Shown here piece by piece: positions 7,952 to 16,004 of a DNA stretch of 64,000 bases. A model generated the notes under the pieces. That model had not been told where the DNA came from. It did not search any database and was given only the letters and a program-made list of their open reading frames with translations. The position numbers were made by a program, and so were the translations under genes. Each line of letters opens with the position of its first letter. The first letter of the stretch is position 1. The stretch is from Bacteroidota bacterium (lineage in GTDB: Bacteria; Bacteroidota; Ignavibacteria; UBA10030). The DNA lies in the NCBI GenBank assembly GCA_026416125.1, contig JAOAFT010000005.1, forward strand, positions 1 through 64,000, written 5' to 3'.

Positions 7952-8557
7952 TTAAACCTGAATATTGAAAGATTCGAAATCCTTAAGTAATTGTTCGACC
8001 GAGGTAAATTGTATACCATGCATCCCTGCTTGAATAGCACCTTCAACATTGCACGCAGTATCATCAATAAAAAGGACACTCTCCGGTGAACATTTCAAAT
8101 CTGCAACGACAATATCGTAAAACTCTCTCTGTGGTTTCAGTGCATTGAGTTGGTACGAAACGTAGTGCTTCTTCAAGTACCGAAGTGCCGGAACACTCAA
8201 CAAGCTCCGGCGATAGTGAAATTCACTTGTGTTACTGACAAGTGCTGTATAGTACGATTGAGAGAGAGACCTTACAACGTTTTCCATTGCATCAATGGGT
8301 TCACAGAGAATACTTGAAAATGCTTGTTCAATAACATCTCGACTGAATGAATTTTGAAGTATTTCAGCCACTTGTCCAAAAAAGACATCCGTTGGTATCT
8401 TTCCTGATTCATAGAGTTGTTGAAGGGGGTGTATTTTTGAATGCACTGAAGTTAATAATGAAGGTTCAGTAATCCCTAAGTTCCGTGGAAAATTTAAAAT
8501 GTCAATGCGTATAAGAACATTCCCAAGATCAAAAAGAATAAATTCAATATCCTTCAT
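7952..8557 (-). CDS. HAD-superfamily hydrolase
   Basis: A 201-residue haloacid-dehalogenase-type phosphohydrolase. Motif I reads FILFDLGNVL: the nucleophile Asp is present but the second Asp of DxD is Gly, as in the YihX/epoxide-hydrolase-N-terminal-like subfamily. Motif II is the Ser/Thr of LVSNTSEF, the motif III Lys lies in LKPQREFY, and motif IV is FIDDTACNVEGA. The cap is a small helical C1 insert. Substrates in this group are small sugar phosphates or are unknown; none is implied here. It overlaps the upstream phosphoesterase gene by 4 bases, so the two are translationally coupled. Confidence 0.82.
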   Translation of the reverse strand: MKDIEFILFDLGNVLIRIDILNFPRNLGITEPSLLTSVHSKIHPLQQLYESGKIPTDVFFGQVAEILQNSFSRDVIEQAFSSILCEPIDAMENVVRSLSQSYYTALVSNTSEFHYRRSLLSVPALRYLKKHYVSYQLNALKPQREFYDIVVADLKCSPESVLFIDDTACNVEGAIQAGMHGIQFTSVEQLLKDFESFNIQV

Positions 8558-9204
8558 CCAATATGCTCCACAGTAATCCCATCGTTTATATCAATAATTG
8601 CATACTTATTCTCTGCAACAGAACCGCAATTACAAATGAGTGTAGTTCCCAGAATATCAGTTCCCTTCGCTTCATGGATGTGTCCACAAAGGACAAGATC
8701 CGGTGAATACTGTTCAATAAATGCACGAAGAGCTGTACTACCCACGTGTAATCCCAATCGTATTGTATCGACCTTTGTTTTATATGGTGGAACATGTGAA
8801 AGCACAACTTTTCGTGTTGCATTGTTGAATTCATTCCACCCACTCTCTAAAGCTGCAAAAATATCATCTTCCGATACTTCATACGGTGTATGTAACATGC
8901 TGTACGGTGCTGCAGAAACGCCACAAAAACCAATAGTATCGTACATTATACTCTTTTTATTAACTCCAACACCCATCGTACTCAACCACCCATCAATTTC
9001 TCGAGAATCCATATTCCCAGCAACTGCAATGATAGGTTTTGAATACTGAGCAATAATAGAGAAAATATCTTGAACCTGGGAAATTGTCCCATGAGTCGTG
9101 AAATCACCTGCAATGCAAACAAGATCAAAAGAATTGGTTTGACTGAGAATGTTAGCTAATCGTTCTCTTTTGCCATGAATATCACTGAGTGCTAGAATTC
9201 GCAT
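8554..9204 (-). CDS. Calcineurin-like metallophosphoesterase
   Basis: A 216-residue protein with all five blocks of the calcineurin-like fold: SDIHG, AGDF, GNMD, a lone His in LSHVPPY, and GHIH. The size and the early SDIHG fit the YfcE/MJ0936 group of manganese phosphodiesterases. A GTG at 9216 would add four residues, but an AGGTGAT ribosome site overlaps that codon and is well placed for the ATG at 9204, which gives the usual MRILALSDIHG start. It forms a unit with the HAD hydrolase and AlaX genes downstream; no shared pathway is obvious. Confidence 0.85.
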   Translation of the reverse strand: MRILALSDIHGKRERLANILSQTNSFDLVCIAGDFTTHGTISQVQDIFSIIAQYSKPIIAVAGNMDSREIDGWLSTMGVGVNKKSIMYDTIGFCGVSAAPYSMLHTPYEVSEDDIFAALESGWNEFNNATRKVVLSHVPPYKTKVDTIRLGLHVGSTALRAFIEQYSPDLVLCGHIHEAKGTDILGTTLICNCGSVAENKYAIIDINDGITVEHIG

Positions 9205-9246
9205 GTCTGTTATCACCTATAGTAAATATCGAAAGTTTTTTCTCAG

Positions 9247-9845: not shown

Positions 9846-10292
9846 ATGGATAGAGTAGTACGATTTGGAATTTCGATGGAAGAAAGCCTTTTACGGGATT
9901 TCGATCAACTAATTGAAGAAAAAGGGTACTCTAATCGTTCTGAAGCCATACGCGATATTGTTCGTGATAAACTCGTTGAAGAGAATATACAAAATCCTTC
10001 TGCTTTTGTATATGGAGCACTTGTGTTTCTCTACGATCATCACAAACGTGAATTAGAAAAACTACTCACTGATTTCCAACATATGTACTTTGAGAACATT
10101 GTATCAACAACTCATGTCCATGTTGATCATAACCATTGCCTAGAAGTTATTCTTTTACGAGGTAAAGTATCACAACTGAAATCGCTTGCTGAAAAGATCT
10201 TAAGCTTTAAAGGCGTTAAACACGGTAAATTAACACTCACCACAGTACTTACACAACCAAAACATAAGCATTCCATTCACAAACATGAATAG
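9846..10292 (+). CDS. nikR: Nickel-responsive repressor NikR
   Basis: A 148-residue protein with an N-terminal ribbon-helix-helix domain (about 1-50, RFGISMEESLLRDFD then SNRSEAIRDIVR) and a C-terminal ACT-like nickel-binding domain. High-affinity site residues align with E. coli NikR: H79, H90 and H92 (THVHVDH) and C98 (HCLEV), with the same 11- and 6-residue spacings. The C-terminal tail is His-rich (PKHKHSIHKHE). With nickel bound the tetramer represses nickel uptake genes. A matching operator sits 31 bases after its stop on the promoter of the TonB receptor gene. Its own promoter region shows no such site. Confidence 0.95.
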   Translation: MDRVVRFGISMEESLLRDFDQLIEEKGYSNRSEAIRDIVRDKLVEENIQNPSAFVYGALVFLYDHHKRELEKLLTDFQHMYFENIVSTTHVHVDHNHCLEVILLRGKVSQLKSLAEKILSFKGVKHGKLTLTTVLTQPKHKHSIHKHE

Positions 10293-10303
10293 TACTCAAT
10301 GCC

Positions 10304-10349
10304 TTGACAATAAGAGAATATGGTGTTACATTTTTAAAAAAAGTAACAC
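10304..10349 (+). promoter_or_regulatory. Promoter with overlapping NikR operator
   Basis: A -35 box TTGACA (10304-10309), a 17-base spacer and a -10 box TACATT (10327-10332). A perfect dyad GTGTTAC (10323-10329) - 13 bases - GTAACAC (10343-10349) covers the -10 box and start region. The dyad matches the NikR operator pattern GTGTTAC-N13/14-GTAACAC that I recall for several anaerobes. Bound NikR would block RNA polymerase at the receptor operon. Confidence 0.85.
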
Positions 10350-10369: not shown

Positions 10370-12199
10370 ATGAAACACTGCACACTAGCTCTAGTATCTC
10401 TTTTGGTGGGATTTTCTTTCGGAAATGCACAAACCGATACACTACGAAGTTATACGTTAAACCCAATAACAGTTACAGCAACACGAACAGAAGTACCACG
10501 TACTTTGGTTGCACCATCGATAAGTGTCATCACTCAAGAGGTTCTTGAACGACAGCCACAGAAGTCAGTTTTCAGTATCATTAGTCAACAGGTACCAAGT
10601 GTTTTCGTCACAGAACGTGGCCCTATTGGTTTTGGAGTTAACTCACCTGCAGGTCAAACACTCATCCGTGGCATTGGTGGAACTCCTAATACTAATGTAC
10701 TAACTCTGATTGATGGAAGACCTCAATTCATGGGCATTTTCGGACACCCTGTGAACGATAGTTACCTCTCAGCTCACATTGAGAGAGTTGAAATTATTCG
10801 TGGTCCAGCATCGCTCCTCTATGGAACGAATGCAATGGGAGGAGTCATCAATCTTATCACAGCTAAAAACGATCGCATAGGTATTTCTGGTAAAGCAAAT
10901 GTTACATATGGAACCTTCAACACCCGACATGCTGGAATACGTCTTGGTTACCAAGGTAACCAATTTTCTACAACGGCAAGCTACACAAATATTCATACCG
11001 ATGGACATCGTCCATATGCACGGTATACAGGAAACAGTGGGTACCTTAAAGCATCGTATACACTGTCTGAACAATACGAAGTAAGTTTTGATGGAAGCAT
11101 AACAAAATTTAACACCTTTGATCCTGGAACAATCACTTCCACAAAAATTAACGATTGGATGAACATACAGCGCGGGTATGTAGGTGTATCACTTGATAAT
11201 ACATTTGATCAATCAAAAGGTGGTGTTCGAATCCTCTACAACTTTGGACACCATGAGCTCTCACCATATTACAACAACAATAGTTGGACATCGGACGATT
11301 TTGTCTCGACAATTTCTGCATTTCAAACATTCACTCTCTCGAGTACAACAACATTCACTACAGGTATTACCTATGATCAATTTGGAGGTCGTGGGAAAAA
11401 TACTTTACGAAATTACGGTTATCATTCAGTCTCTCAATATGCAACCTATCTCAGCATTCAACATCTTTTCTTCGAACGTCTCCTTGTAAATACAGGAATC
11501 CGGTTTGATAGAAATGAAATGTTTGGAAATGAGCTCACACCTCAACTTGGTGCATCGTATAAAATTTCTGATGCAACGACGGTGCGAGGGTTTGTTGGGA
11601 AAGGATTTCGAAGTCCAACAATCCGAGAACTTTACCTCTTCCCTGCACCAACACCGTCACTTAAACCTGAACGTCTTTGGAATTATGAAGTTGGTGCTTC
11701 ACACCTTGTTGGAAACTGTTTTACTGCTGATCTCACATTGTTCCTCCAAGAAGGAAGCAATCTCATACGTCGAGAAGGCGTCGCTCCTAACTTTCGGTTA
11801 TCGAACTCTGGTAAATTTGTTCACAGAGGTGTTGAAGCATCTGGAATCTTCCTGCCTCTCGACAACCTCCAACTCCAAGGAAGTTATAGTTTCCTTGAAG
11901 TTGGGAATGACACCAGAAGTGTTCCAAAACATAAAATGTTTGCAAACATAATGTACTCATACTCTATGGTTTCTATTAATCTTGCAGCACACCACATCGA
12001 AACAATGTATGGTAGTGATTACAAAAGAAATAAATTGCCTGATTACACAGTTGTTGTTATTGACGTAAGCGCAAAACTTTTAAACAATGCATCTTGCTCA
12101 CTTACGATTGATAACGTACTCAATGAAACGTACTATACTGTTCTTGGATATCCAATGCCAGGGCGAAGTATAACTGTTGGTATACAATACTCCTTATAA
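10370..12199 (+). CDS. TonB-dependent outer-membrane receptor, probably for nickel or a nickel complex
   Basis: A 609-residue protein. It has a Sec signal peptide (MKHCTLALVSLLVGFSFGNA), a TonB box-like LNPITVTATR, a plug domain (about 40-150, with the typical IRGPASLLYGTNAMGGVINL) and a 22-strand-type barrel ending in an aromatic-rich strand (SITVGIQYSL). I chose the ATG at 10370 over a frame extension from 10304 because TTGGAG lies ahead of it and the signal peptide begins there. Family members pull scarce metal chelates or vitamins across the outer membrane using TonB-ExbBD energy, none of which is in this window. The NikR operator upstream makes nickel the likely cargo. The ECF S-like and methyltransferase genes follow closely. 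Confidence 0.9.
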   Translation: MKHCTLALVSLLVGFSFGNAQTDTLRSYTLNPITVTATRTEVPRTLVAPSISVITQEVLERQPQKSVFSIISQQVPSVFVTERGPIGFGVNSPAGQTLIRGIGGTPNTNVLTLIDGRPQFMGIFGHPVNDSYLSAHIERVEIIRGPASLLYGTNAMGGVINLITAKNDRIGISGKANVTYGTFNTRHAGIRLGYQGNQFSTTASYTNIHTDGHRPYARYTGNSGYLKASYTLSEQYEVSFDGSITKFNTFDPGTITSTKINDWMNIQRGYVGVSLDNTFDQSKGGVRILYNFGHHELSPYYNNNSWTSDDFVSTISAFQTFTLSSTTTFTTGITYDQFGGRGKNTLRNYGYHSVSQYATYLSIQHLFFERLLVNTGIRFDRNEMFGNELTPQLGASYKISDATTVRGFVGKGFRSPTIRELYLFPAPTPSLKPERLWNYEVGASHLVGNCFTADLTLFLQEGSNLIRREGVAPNFRLSNSGKFVHRGVEASGIFLPLDNLQLQGSYSFLEVGNDTRSVPKHKMFANIMYSYSMVSINLAAHHIETMYGSDYKRNKLPDYTVVVIDVSAKLLNNASCSLTIDNVLNETYYTVLGYPMPGRSITVGIQYSL

Positions 12200-12220
12200 A
12201 ATAATTTGGAGGGATGAGCA

Positions 12221-12724
12221 ATGCGAGATAATACCCTTGTTCAAAAAATTAAGTTATCGTTGAGTGATTCACTTATTTTCTCAGCACTTGGTGTGGCTCT
12301 TGGTATTACCTTTCCACAACTCTTCCACAACATTGGTCTCGGTGCTGCATTCCTCCCTTTGTTCCTACCAATAGTCCTTCTATCGTTTCTAGTACCATAC
12401 TTCTACCTTATTACTCTTGCAATGGTGCTTCCATTATTAAACTCGATTGTTTTTGGAATGCCACCGTTTCCTATATCACTGTTTCTTGTCGCTGAACTCC
12501 TACTCACTGCTTCTCTTCTCTATTTCTTACAAAAGCGTCTTCCAACACCAGTGAGCATTGTACTATCTCTTCTTATAGAGAGAACAGCCTTATACCTTTT
12601 CTTCTCATATGTATTTTGTCCACAGTGGACAACTCCGTATGCACCCCTTATGTCATATCCTGGCGTTATTTTGAATTCTGCACTTGGTATCCTCTTTTGG
12701 AAAGTGTTTTCAAAGGATCAATAA
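12221..12724 (+). CDS. Integral membrane protein resembling an ECF transporter S component
   Basis: A 167-residue, very hydrophobic protein with about five or six predicted membrane helices, a short polar N terminus and a polar C-terminal KVFSKDQ. Size and helix pattern fit substrate-binding S components of energy-coupling-factor transporters, which capture a vitamin or metal and work with EcfA/EcfT; no ATPase or EcfT gene is in this window. A GGAGGGATGA ribosome site lies ahead of the ATG, 21 bases after the receptor stop, so it belongs to the NikR-controlled operon and is a candidate inner-membrane partner for nickel uptake. It lacks the HX4DH signature of NiCoT permeases and any clear CbiM N-terminal His motif. 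Assignment is by size, hydropathy and context. Confidence 0.55.
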   Translation: MRDNTLVQKIKLSLSDSLIFSALGVALGITFPQLFHNIGLGAAFLPLFLPIVLLSFLVPYFYLITLAMVLPLLNSIVFGMPPFPISLFLVAELLLTASLLYFLQKRLPTPVSIVLSLLIERTALYLFFSYVFCPQWTTPYAPLMSYPGVILNSALGILFWKVFSKDQ

Positions 12725-12731
12725 GTGAACT

Positions 12732-13343
12732 ATGAACTCATTTTCAGAATTGCAAAACGCCAATACACGGAAAGCATTTTTTGATGCTCTTGCGAGTTCA
12801 TGGAATCTTCAATTGTCTGAAAGTGATCTCAACTATATACGAACTGTGCTCCACTACACGTTACCATCTCCATCCCCATTCTGCACGATTCTTGACGTTG
12901 GATGTGGTACCGGTGCTCTTTTCCCCCTTCTTGAAAACTATAACGTCGTAGCACTCGATTTCTCTCAACAAATGCTTCGTGTTGCACGCAGTCGTGGATT
13001 TAAAAACGTCCGTTCATATGTGTGTACCGATGCCCATTCTTTACCATTCATTGAGGAATATTTTGCAGCAGCATTAATGTTTAATGTTTTTCCACACTTC
13101 ACTGATCCACAGCGAGCACTTCACGAAGTATCACGTGTTCTCATACGAGGTGGGAAACTAGCTATTTTTCATCTCCATAACCGTACTTCCATTTCTAAAC
13201 TCCACCAGTCGATCGGTGGACCAATTGCTTATGATACTCTTCCTGATGAACCCATTATGGAAGCAATGCTTCAAAATGCACATTTGAAAATCGACTATAA
13301 AGAAAACACCTCTCGGTATGCCATAGTTTGTAGGAAAGAATAA
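12732..13343 (+). CDS. Class I SAM-dependent methyltransferase
   Basis: A 203-residue Rossmann-fold methyltransferase. Motif I is LDVGCGTGALFPLL, the acidic end of strand 2 is VALDFS, and the post-I block DAHSLPFIEEYFAAALMFNVF fits the UbiE/Methyltransf_11 type. The substrate is unknown. The start is eight bases after the S-component stop, giving three genes in one probable operon under the NikR operator. In that setting it could modify a nickel-binding small molecule or be a passenger gene; neither is shown. It converges with the hydrogenase operon, with only 50 bases and no clear terminator between them. Confidence 0.8.
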   Translation: MNSFSELQNANTRKAFFDALASSWNLQLSESDLNYIRTVLHYTLPSPSPFCTILDVGCGTGALFPLLENYNVVALDFSQQMLRVARSRGFKNVRSYVCTDAHSLPFIEEYFAAALMFNVFPHFTDPQRALHEVSRVLIRGGKLAIFHLHNRTSISKLHQSIGGPIAYDTLPDEPIMEAMLQNAHLKIDYKENTSRYAIVCRKE

Positions 13344-13393: not shown

Positions 13394-13900
13394 TTAGCAG
13401 AAATAACTCGCATTCGAAAATGACTGGTAACCGTTTACCAGTTGTGATATGACTCTTAGAATCTTTTGTATAACCTCTGAAATATATTGTTCCGTTTCCT
13501 TTGAAAGTTGTTCCCCGACCATTACACTACGTATTTGTACACCAACGAGGTACACTTGTGAAGGAGCATTGCCGAGTACTTTCGAAATCCCAATCACCGC
13601 AAGTAAAGGGAGTGAATGAGTAGTGCCTATTGATTTATACTTCAACTGCTGCAATGTTTCGGATGTTAAAGGAAGAATTGTACATGCCCCTGGTTCCTTC
13701 CCACACTCCATAGCATCTACGAGCACGACAATGGAGTACCCTTCCCAGAGTGTATAGAGTTTTGTTAAATCATCTTTCACATAACGCACAGTTATATATG
13801 GTAACTTAAGAGCTTCAATTCTCTTTGTTATGATAATTCCTACAGCATCATCTTGACGCAACTCATTCCCAATACCAACAACAAGTACCTTTGTAGTCAT
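13394..13900 (-). CDS. Hydrogenase maturation protease (HyaD/HycI family)
   Basis: A 168-residue protein starting MTTKVLVVGIGNELRQDDAVG, the nickel-sensing Asp region of the family; a second conserved acidic residue lies in VLVDAMECG and the His in TTHSLPLL. The enzyme checks nickel insertion and then clips the C-terminal peptide of the hydrogenase large subunit, which here would be cut after the His of DPCISCSVH. It is the last gene of the hydrogenase operon, 36 bases after the large-subunit stop. The hyp genes that build the Fe(CN)2CO centre are not in this window. Confidence 0.9.
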   Translation of the reverse strand: MTTKVLVVGIGNELRQDDAVGIIITKRIEALKLPYITVRYVKDDLTKLYTLWEGYSIVVLVDAMECGKEPGACTILPLTSETLQQLKYKSIGTTHSLPLLAVIGISKVLGNAPSQVYLVGVQIRSVMVGEQLSKETEQYISEVIQKILRVISQLVNGYQSFSNASYFC

Positions 13901-13936: not shown

Positions 13937-15226
13937 TTACTCATCGGTACATTCAAGCGTAACCAGGTGCACAGAACAAGAAATGCATGGATCGTAGTTC
14001 CTAATAACTTGTTCACATTGCCATTGTAATTTTTCCTGCGATATTTTTACCCGAGGGGGTATGAATTCTCGTAAATCCTGCTCCATAGATTTTTGATTCT
14101 GAGCAGTTGGCGGCACTATTTTAGCATCAACTATTTTTCCTCTCTCATCCAATCGGTAGCGGTGGTACAGAATACCACGTGGAGCTTCAGTGCATCCGTA
14201 TCCAATTCCCATGTGGGGTTCGATTGGAATTGATGGTGATATTGGTTCTTCATACGTCTTACAGATTTTGATAGCCTCTTCACATGCATAAAGCGTTTCA
14301 AGTGCACGCACAATGATGCTCTTAAATGGATTATTCGTGCCTTTTGCAATACCAACGTTTTTAGCAAGTTCCTTTACTGTAGATGTTAGTTTATCGTAGT
14401 TCAAGTTGAAACGAGCAAGGGGACCAACAAAGTATGCTCCCCGTTGTTTTATAATTGAATGCAGAGCAGTACTGTACGATACGTGTTCCTCTAAAAAGTA
14501 CTCCTCATACTCTGCTATATCGATATTGAGTCCTTTGTTAGATACAAGCCGCCCTTCGTTCATCGGATACTCGTGGTCGTGTCGTAGTGCAACAAACTCA
14601 TAGTCACGTTCGAAATCTGGAAACGGTAATTGAGCACAAAATTTAACAGCTTGAATGGCTGCGTCACGTGCCCACTCCAAAGGCTCTATGAGTGATTGAA
14701 GTTCTTTCTTCGAAGGGACTCTATAGAATCCACCTACACGAACATTGATCGGATGTATTTCTCGACCACCAACAAGGTTTACAATTTCATTCCCAATTTT
14801 TTTTAATTTCAAAGCCATCTGAACGACAGCCCCATAATCTTTCGCCATTCGTAGGGCATCCTCATACCCAAGAAAATCAGGTGCGTGGAGGAAGAATATA
14901 TGGAGTACATGGCTTTCGATCCACTCACCACAATATAACAATCGGCGAAGTGAACGGAGTTGTCCATCGATATGGGCACCGAATGCACGTTCCATTGCTT
15001 GCACTGCACTCATTTGGTACGCTATTGGACAAATGCCACAAATACGAGCAGTAATGTCTGGTGCTTCACTATAGGGTCGTCCTCGGAGAAATGCTTCAAA
15101 AAATCGAGGAGGTTCAAAGACTGTAAACTTTACCTCCTTTACTTGTGTGCCACGTATTTTAACGTGAATACCTCCTTCACCTTCAACCCGTGCAAGGTAG
15201 TCTACTTTGATTGTTCTACTTTTCAT
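13937..15226 (-). CDS. NiFe hydrogenase large (alpha) subunit, group 3b-like
   Basis: A 429-residue catalytic subunit. The two Cys pairs that hold the NiFe centre are present: [10 protein letters not shown] near residue 63 and DPCISCSVH close to the C terminus, followed by LVTLECTDE as the peptide removed on maturation. The N-terminal ARVEGEGG motif is intact. The cytoplasmic group 3b enzymes are tetramers that couple hydrogen turnover to NAD(P)H and can reduce sulfur. The frame extends to 15265, but the ATG at 15226 gives the family start [18 protein letters not shown] and overlaps the small-subunit stop by 11 bases. Confidence 0.93.
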
Positions 15227-16004
15227 GTGCTTCACTTTCTTTTCTAAATGCTTCTGAGTATGCATTAAAATTTCTGAAGAGATGAACGAGTTCTTCTCTA
15301 CTTCTTCCTTGTGCCAGGAGATATGAACTCAATGCACTTGTATTTGGAGTTTCTTTAGGGCCATAACAACCAAAACACCCACGATTATAGGATGGACAAA
15401 GTGCATTACATCCCGCTTGTGTAACAGGCCCTAAACACGGAATAGCTTGTGTAACCGCCACACACGGCACAAATCGGCGTTTACATTCAACACATACTGC
15501 ATACGTTGGAATATTCGGTTTACGTCCATTCAAATAGGCATTAATGACCTCGAGAAGATGGTACTTGTTTATTGGACAACCACGCAATTCGAAATCAACA
15601 AATACATGATCAGCGATGGGAGTCGATTTATTTAATGTTTCGATATACTTGGGGTTGGCGTACACCATGGAAACAAACTGCTTCGCATCCTTGAAGTTCC
15701 GAAGAGCTTGAATACCACCTGCTGTTGCACATGCACCAATAGTAATGAGTATCTTCGATTGCCGTCGTACTTGGTGAATTCTCTCTGCGTCATGGGGAGT
15801 TGTTATTGATCCTTCGACAAGCGAGATATCATAAGGACCTTTACTAATAGCTCGTGAAGCTTCGGCAAAGTTTGCAATTTCGATATGTTTAGCCACCCCG
15901 AGAAGTTCATCTTCACAATCAAGGAGTGACAGTTGACACCCATCGCACGATGCAAACTTCCAAACTGCAAGCTTAGGTTTTCGTTGTTTCTTACTTTTTG
16001 CCAT
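15216..16004 (-). CDS. NiFe hydrogenase small (delta) subunit
   Basis: A 262-residue electron-transfer subunit. Cluster ligands are visible in [17 protein letters not shown] (proximal 4Fe-4S), IGACATAGG, and a C-terminal group including [28 protein letters not shown] and GCFGCYGP. There is no Tat signal peptide, which fits the soluble cytoplasmic group 3 enzymes. The length matches sulfhydrogenase delta subunits. It begins 13 bases after the gamma-subunit stop and overlaps the large-subunit start. Confidence 0.92.

Follow-up and report, generated by a model that had tools for sequence, protein, structure and literature searches.

The 64,000-nucleotide stretch of DNA analyzed here (the window) comes from Bacteroidota bacterium GCA_026416125.1 (contig JAOAFT010000005.1, positions 1-64,000) and carries, directly downstream of a nikR gene, a trio of genes encoding a TonB-dependent outer-membrane receptor (TBDT), a six-helix inner-membrane protein resembling the S components of energy-coupling factor (ECF) transporters, and a class I methyltransferase dependent on S-adenosylmethionine. 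We regard it as probable that this trio constitutes a NikR-repressed importer of a nickel chelate with interchangeable inner-membrane parts.

All four genes lie on the forward strand in the order nikR (9846..10292), receptor (10370..12199, 609 aa), S-like protein (12221..12724, 167 aa, six long helices by its predicted fold) and methyltransferase (12732..13343, 203 aa). The open reading frames were confirmed where a preliminary description of the sequence had placed them, and the gaps of 77 bp between nikR and the receptor gene, 21 bp between receptor and S genes, and 7 bp between S and methyltransferase genes fit a single operon. The nikR product is a true NikR, the nickel-responsive ribbon-helix-helix regulator: it matches NikR_C (E 1.6e-30), scores 177 bits against the NCBIfam equivalog model PRK04460.1 (cut-off 105), and can be aligned over its full length to NikR chains in the PDB (E 1.2e-37), retaining the HxH...C segment. 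The receptor exceeds the Pfam cut-offs of both PF07715 (plug, E 5.3e-20) and PF00593 (barrel, E 3.3e-32), an assignment made by domains and not by counting strands. The methyltransferase matches Methyltransf_11 (E 1.4e-23).

Receptor, S protein and methyltransferase were found together in eight genomes: that of the window (G000), G003, G036, G051, G057, G086, G098 and the Fermentibacteria genome that holds locus L010. The proximity to nikR remarked on in the preliminary description recurs, with nikR adjoining the trio in six of the eight; the remaining two have nikR at a different place in the genome (on another contig in G057, and apart from the trio in the genome of L010). Of 100 related genomes, the S protein is encoded in 7 and NikR in 27, and all 7 fall within the 27 (hypergeometric probability 5.5e-5, uncorrected for kinship). 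All 7 have the S gene behind a TBDT gene of this family, with the methyltransferase gene alongside (about 2 kb away in G003). A receptor tree, from which the fragmentary L055, L076 and L084 were omitted, places the window's receptor with others linked to nikR, S or methyltransferase genes (8 rows, 96% SH-aLRT); L091 and L065 sit on long branches and are unsurely placed, L091 outside the window's group. Loci L078 and L150 (G144, G020) are apparently one contig of 24033 bases and were treated as a single locus; L122/G236 likewise coincides with G121.

The candidate NikR operator

Between nikR and the receptor gene, on the forward strand, lies a perfect 7-bp inverted repeat, GTGTTAC-N13-GTAACAC (10323..10349), which we propose as a candidate NikR operator. 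On the same strand, a promoter-like site, TTGACA-N17-TACATT (10304..10332), has its likely -10 box overlapped by the repeat; the site has a TG before the -10 box and agrees with the consensus at 10/12 positions. As a class, promoter-like sites occur there no more often than by chance (12 found, 13.1 expected). The operator class GTRNYAC-N13-GTRNYAC occurs once in the window against an expectation of 0.02, and the exact operator sequence has a single occurrence in the 2.41-Mb genome, with none for a backward-pattern control.

The motif was derived from regions 5' of nikR, at loci retrieved through their TBDT, by an expectation-maximization search for spaced palindromes; a search for exact 7-mer dyads found nothing common to the loci. 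The best model has a GTRNYAC-like half-site and a spacer of 14 (N14, Bacteroidales), and the window's clade has the N13 form. Scanning upstream of TBDT genes with spacers N12-16 yielded 36 N14 and 11 N13 sites, compared with 1.7 and 2.75 in shuffled sequence. When 80 TBDT loci from named genomes were surveyed for S and nikR, the operator class was present at 21 of 22 nikR-TBDT loci, at 2 of 25 S loci lacking an adjacent nikR, and at 5 of 33 loci with neither. One of the two S loci is the Fermentibacteria trio locus L010, and one of the five (L018) belongs to a genome in which a fragment of nikR borders the end of a contig. All eight trio loci are preceded by the operator class, with a full score in the window, L010, L091, L092, L093 and L096 and a score of 11/12 at L094 and L095; at L092 and L093 the operator lies just within the longest open reading frame, upstream of the true start as judged by homology. 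With the motif model, the sequence preceding nikR in the window scored -3.6, hence no operator is claimed there.

A NikR-controlled promoter, which the preliminary description had deduced, is now supported by a perfect inverted repeat over a promoter-like site, and these sequence features support control of the trio by NikR at its own promoter through the candidate operator. The NikR-type operator is the sole regulator signature common to the trio loci. A predominant location beside heme or cobalamin regulators, named at the outset as the observation that would speak against a nickel role, was not encountered: no such regulator was seen in the eight trio neighborhoods, and no Rfam riboswitch was found in the window or the seven other trio loci. 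Control by a cobalamin or other riboswitch was likewise rejected for 11 loci of the S/phosphoribosyltransferase type described below and for eight gut loci (only tRNAs matched).

An S component with and without EcfT and EcfA

The 167-aa S protein has no Pfam family, no NCBIfam name and, at E up to 10, no match among PDB sequences. An AlphaFold2 model (pLDDT 90.8) was built from an alignment, A1, of 30 relatives, from which L027 was omitted as a near copy of L029. In a VIA-align comparison every one of the first 21 rows is an ECF S component, Z falling from 14.8 (2.8 A over 151 residues) to 10.2, with RibU, ThiT, BioY, PanT, FolT, NikM2 and CbiM among the top rows; RibU (Z 14.8) ranks above NikM2 (4m58, Z 11.7) and CbiM (5x3x, Z 10.4). 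Row 22, MreD, is close behind at Z 9.7, helical folds generally scoring high. Foldseek alone returned nothing at E up to 0.001, its first seven rows being S components or ECF complexes. ECF_trnsprt (PF12822) is matched weakly, at E up to 1, by 19 of the 30 family members, the window's not among them, and the best match (1.2e-6, 29.1 bits) falls under the cut-off of 30.7. Positions H36, G41, P71, P81 and G148 are invariant in A1; the model, with helices numbered from the DSSP line, puts H36 and G41 where helix 1 ends and in the loop that follows, and P81 in the loop joining long helices three and four. The two corresponding loops of FolT are described as closing the substrate pocket (PMC4820897).

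Because homologues share operons with EcfT and EcfA, we identify the six-helix protein, as modeled, as an ECF S component, so that the S-like assignment of the preliminary description gains support from both fold and gene context. The operons read nikR-TBDT-S-methyltransferase-EcfT-EcfA at L096, nikR-EcfT-EcfA-TBDT-S-methyltransferase at L091, TBDT-S-methyltransferase-EcfT-EcfA at L092, and methyltransferase-EcfT-EcfA-S-TBDT at the Fermentibacteria locus L010; L093 likewise has the EcfT/EcfA pair after the methyltransferase. EcfT and EcfA thus accompany the trio in 4 of the 7 S-encoding genomes (G086, G036, G057, G098), in addition to L010.

The window's locus has no EcfA or EcfT of its own, as already stated in the preliminary description, and no EcfT was found in the window's genome by PF02361 (E up to 0.001) or by a profile built from five EcfTs of the module (E up to 1), EcfA not being searched genome-wide. 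G003 and G051 likewise yielded no EcfT with either profile. Nor does the window's genome encode CbiM or NicO, in a genome-wide search that did not extend to HupE/UreJ, NiCoT outside NicO, NikABCDE or CorA-type permeases; as a control, the CbiM profile was positive in 3 of 14 known genomes. The S protein itself has no CbiM/NikM match and so does not qualify as an S subunit of the CbiM/NikM type; no NikN partner lies nearby. Since no EcfT, CbiM or NicO is recognizable in the genome, the S protein probably acts alone there.

An alternative, which we think rather unlikely, is that the S protein is not solitary, its EcfT and EcfA being too divergent for the profiles or encoded in sequence absent from the assembly. 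Completeness of the genome is 98.65%, over 77 contigs, and PF02361 can miss members: it failed to detect the EcfT of G086, which the module profile later found at 4.7e-87, so that its silence alone is weak evidence. In addition, the window's S protein keeps (A22, A26) the AxxxA motif of helix 1 that is described for contact with EcfT (PMC4820897). This motif is [AG]xxxA in 5/5 S proteins whose operon includes EcfT, and AxxxA is present in 9 of the 25 others, the window's included. However, both profiles are silent in G000, the EcfT-less G003 and G051 have IxxxG in place of AxxxA, as expected after decoupling, and PF02361 found no EcfT in 20 of the 25 genomes that have S and TBDT genes with no adjacent nikR.

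The inner-membrane partner of the receptor also varies at nikR loci in which the S gene is missing. We examined 20 nikR loci of relatives, from 19 genomes lacking the S gene and from G057. A TBDT of the window's family stands at nikR in 7 of the 19: L144 (a fragment), L146, L150, L153, L156, L160 and L161. L153 (5996-11050) reads nikR-TBDT-cupin-NikM-NikQ-NikO, with NikO an EcfA-like ATPase and an N13 operator before nikR; in L160 a gene for an FmdE protein separates nikR from the receptor gene, and L150, on the same contig as L078, carries the methyltransferase. A different receptor is found at nikR in L149 and L162, accompanied in L149 by an importer of the FecBCD type (periplasmic binding protein, FecCD and ATPase); L151 resembles L149, its receptor not being scanned, and L145 and L148 were assigned to no group. 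One NikR-linked receptor combined with differing importer classes is what an uptake system predicts.

At a further 7 of the 19 loci (L147, L152, L154, L155, L158, L159, L163), the place of the receptor is taken by a protein of 243-248 aa that starts with a signal-like segment and matches no Pfam family. By eye it looks like a small outer-membrane barrel, perhaps a porin under NikR control.

The cargo and the methyltransferase

Judged by context, the S family overall is not nickel-specific. S-TBDT pairs lacking an adjacent nikR are common in other Bacteroidota (25 of the 80 TBDT loci). At many such loci the S gene is paired with a small phosphoribosyltransferase gene, usually with a TBDT adjacent (L015, L016, L023, L024, L027, L029, L032, L040, L079, L080, L083, L121-L123). 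The phosphoribosyltransferase occurs in 12 TBDT loci and in the three further S loci L121-L123, and 15/15 scanned match Pribosyltran; the pair is also found without a receptor, and the genomes that carry it are NikR-less where tested. A phylum scan gave S hits in 16 of 395 genomes, of which the weak ones, with E above about 1e-20 (L124-L133), were not counted as family; their contexts are devoid of TBDT, nikR and phosphoribosyltransferase genes, and one lies by glucuronate isomerase. Several TBDTs of a Bacteroidales group, mostly nikR-linked, have an FmdE-domain protein next to them (10/10 scanned), fused to a nucleoside hydrolase in 7/10 (L013, L026, L028, L031, L033, L038, L081) and on its own in L017, L043 and L160. 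The fusions have an N-terminal signal-like segment, and H345, H347 and C387 are invariant in the FmdE part of these proteins. Offered only as a lead, these receptors and carriers may have a common ligand that includes a base or ribosyl moiety and is metal-bound in the NikR branch.

Several observations weigh against a trio dedicated to nickel uptake. NikR is wholly absent from 24 of the 25 genomes that have S and TBDT genes with no adjacent nikR, and from sequence context the S/TBDT pair of those NikR-less genomes appears to serve a program other than that of NikR. A phosphoribosyltransferase beside the S gene suits an organic ligand. The S protein is devoid of the N-terminal Met-His that we take to be a feature of NikM. 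The locus whose TBDT is closest in sequence to that of the window, L078, reads nikR-TBDT-methyltransferase in a genome with no S gene; the S protein is therefore not indispensable. Finally, in the Acidobacteria locus L065 (1711-5059) a methyltransferase of the same family accompanies a TBDT, a metal-type binding protein, an ATPase and a zinc/manganese-type permease, which implies that the enzyme accompanies metal uptake more widely.

In a rival explanation the cargo is not a nickel carrier but an organic cofactor or base-like molecule needed for nickel use or containing nickel, such as a salvaged nickel cofactor, and is placed under NikR control for that reason; the nickel-pincer cofactor of LarA and salvaged F430 are conceivable ligands. 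The phosphoribosyltransferase paired with S in many NikR-less loci, and the nucleoside hydrolase-FmdE fusion or lone FmdE flanking nikR-linked Bacteroidales TBDTs, are consistent with such a cargo. The best NCBIfam model of the window's TBDT is moreover a B12 receptor, albeit at 141 bits against a cut-off of 599.7, too low for assignment as BtuB. We nevertheless consider this explanation unlikely: no cobalamin or other riboswitch was detected in the 27 sources searched, the window included, and the one regulatory signature that the trio loci share is of the NikR type. A broader proposal is a long shot, namely that S carriers form the inner-membrane half of an EcfT/EcfA-free, TonB-linked route across Bacteroidota for metal chelates whose ligand has a base or ribosyl part. 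A periplasmic nucleoside hydrolase-FmdE protein may then strip and hold the ligand in NikR-linked Bacteroidales, phosphoribosyltransferase may trap its base in NikR-less lineages, and the methyltransferase may fill the equivalent role in the window's clade; if true, this would amount to a nickelophore import system for a chelator class so far undescribed.

The methyltransferase was modeled with a pLDDT of 93.3 and has a class I fold (Z 21.5). Its nearest structures are small-molecule methyltransferases, Z ranging from 21.5 to 18.6 over 50 rows, and the fold search gave no pointer to a substrate. Ten family members, that of L095 cut by the contig end, have H122, H147, H158 and D168 invariant or nearly so. 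A housekeeping enzyme of the UbiE/UbiG kind, carried in the operon as a bystander, would fit a fold similar to many small-molecule methyltransferases and the want of a telling neighbor, but is improbable given that the gene lies beside TBDT and S genes (about 2 kb away in G003) at 8/8 trio loci from several families and Fermentibacteria, is retained without S in L078, and encodes these near-invariant residues.

Proposed import route and known systems

Returning to the NikR-repressed nickel chelate importer, we infer its substrate, the direction of its regulation, the solitary action of the S protein and the methyltransferase step, and propose the following route. When cell nickel is low, NikR would leave the operator and the overlapped promoter would fire. 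The TBDT would move a nickel complex over the outer membrane with energy from TonB, and the S protein would take the complex, or metal plus ligand, from the periplasm, probably by way of His36 and conserved residues of loops L1 and L3, and carry it through the inner membrane. In related genomes EcfT and EcfA of the same operon would energize the S protein; here the pair may have been lost or never acquired, leaving the S protein to act alone. The methyltransferase, probably cytoplasmic, would act on the imported ligand and aid nickel release or chelator recycling. That nickel is transported and that the methyltransferase modifies a chelator, both put forward in the preliminary description, stay at the level of inference. 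The imported nickel would supply the adjacent [NiFe]-hydrogenase.

The hydrogenase genes lie immediately downstream of the trio on the opposite strand. The first encodes a hydrogenase maturation protease (13394..13900; HycI E 4.1e-10; TIGR00072 100 bits, cut-off 47.45), which is likely a nickel client. It is followed, also on the reverse strand, by genes for a sulfhydrogenase alpha-like [NiFe]-hydrogenase large subunit (13937..15265; NiFeSe_Hases E 3.3e-29), whose best NCBIfam model, ShyA, scores 304 bits and thus under the model cut-off of 700, and for a delta-like small subunit (15216..16004; Oxidored_q6 E 2.1e-23; ShyD 172 bits, under cut-off). The window, L078/L150 and L147 all have [NiFe]-hydrogenase genes beside nikR, and L017 has a homologue of the large subunit close to the locus. 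Phosphoesterase-like and HAD-like genes, recognized by eye, lie close to the cassette both in the window (7952-9216) and in L094 (12395-13618), which suggests a gene order shared within the family.

Few bacteria are known for how they bring nickel through the two membranes, and the TonB-dependent step is known mainly from Helicobacter. The module described here is a compact, conserved gene set in Bacteroidota with a defined candidate operator. Its natural variants with and without EcfT/EcfA make solitary transport by an S component testable through comparison of sister operons, and its ligand and methyltransferase point to an undescribed nickel chelator.

The cassette resembles the group I ECF importers NikMNQO and CbiMNQO in its S-type carrier, in the EcfT/EcfA of sister operons and in its NikR-type control, and differs from them in that the window's S protein has no CbiM/NikM match, no NikN nearby and no recognizable EcfT in the genome. 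Work by Finkenwirth from 2013 is said to show or propose that solitary BioY functions without EcfA/EcfT. BioY is thereby an S component in the same situation, whereas its ligand and sequence family are different, and the window's S protein is paired with an outer-membrane receptor under a nickel regulator. Among nickel receptors, FecA3 and FrpB4 are reportedly, from the titles of the papers concerned, repressed by NikR. FecA3, FrpB4 and CntO share with our system TonB-dependent nickel uptake at the outer membrane; the window's TBDT, however, shows no more than a remote resemblance to CntO (E 4e-8 over the plug), and its own close relatives are uncharacterized. These three are included among the known nickel TBDTs in a survey of nickel in cable bacteria (PMC11247825). 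The nearest precedent is Caldithrix abyssi, for which two loci with nikR, TBDTs and nikMNQO homologues, sharing a NikR-like upstream motif, were predicted (PMC5317091). Those loci are alike in combining nikR, TBDTs and ECF-type components, in a prediction that also came from genome context; they differ in having annotated nikMNQO, and the relevant passages of that paper name no methyltransferase and discuss no solitary S component (PMC5317091). Full-text literature searches, judged mostly from listings, found no description of a NikR-TBDT-S-methyltransferase cassette. The combination of NikR, a TBDT and ECF components was therefore predicted before, in Caldithrix, whereas this S family, the methyltransferase and the solitary form seem new.

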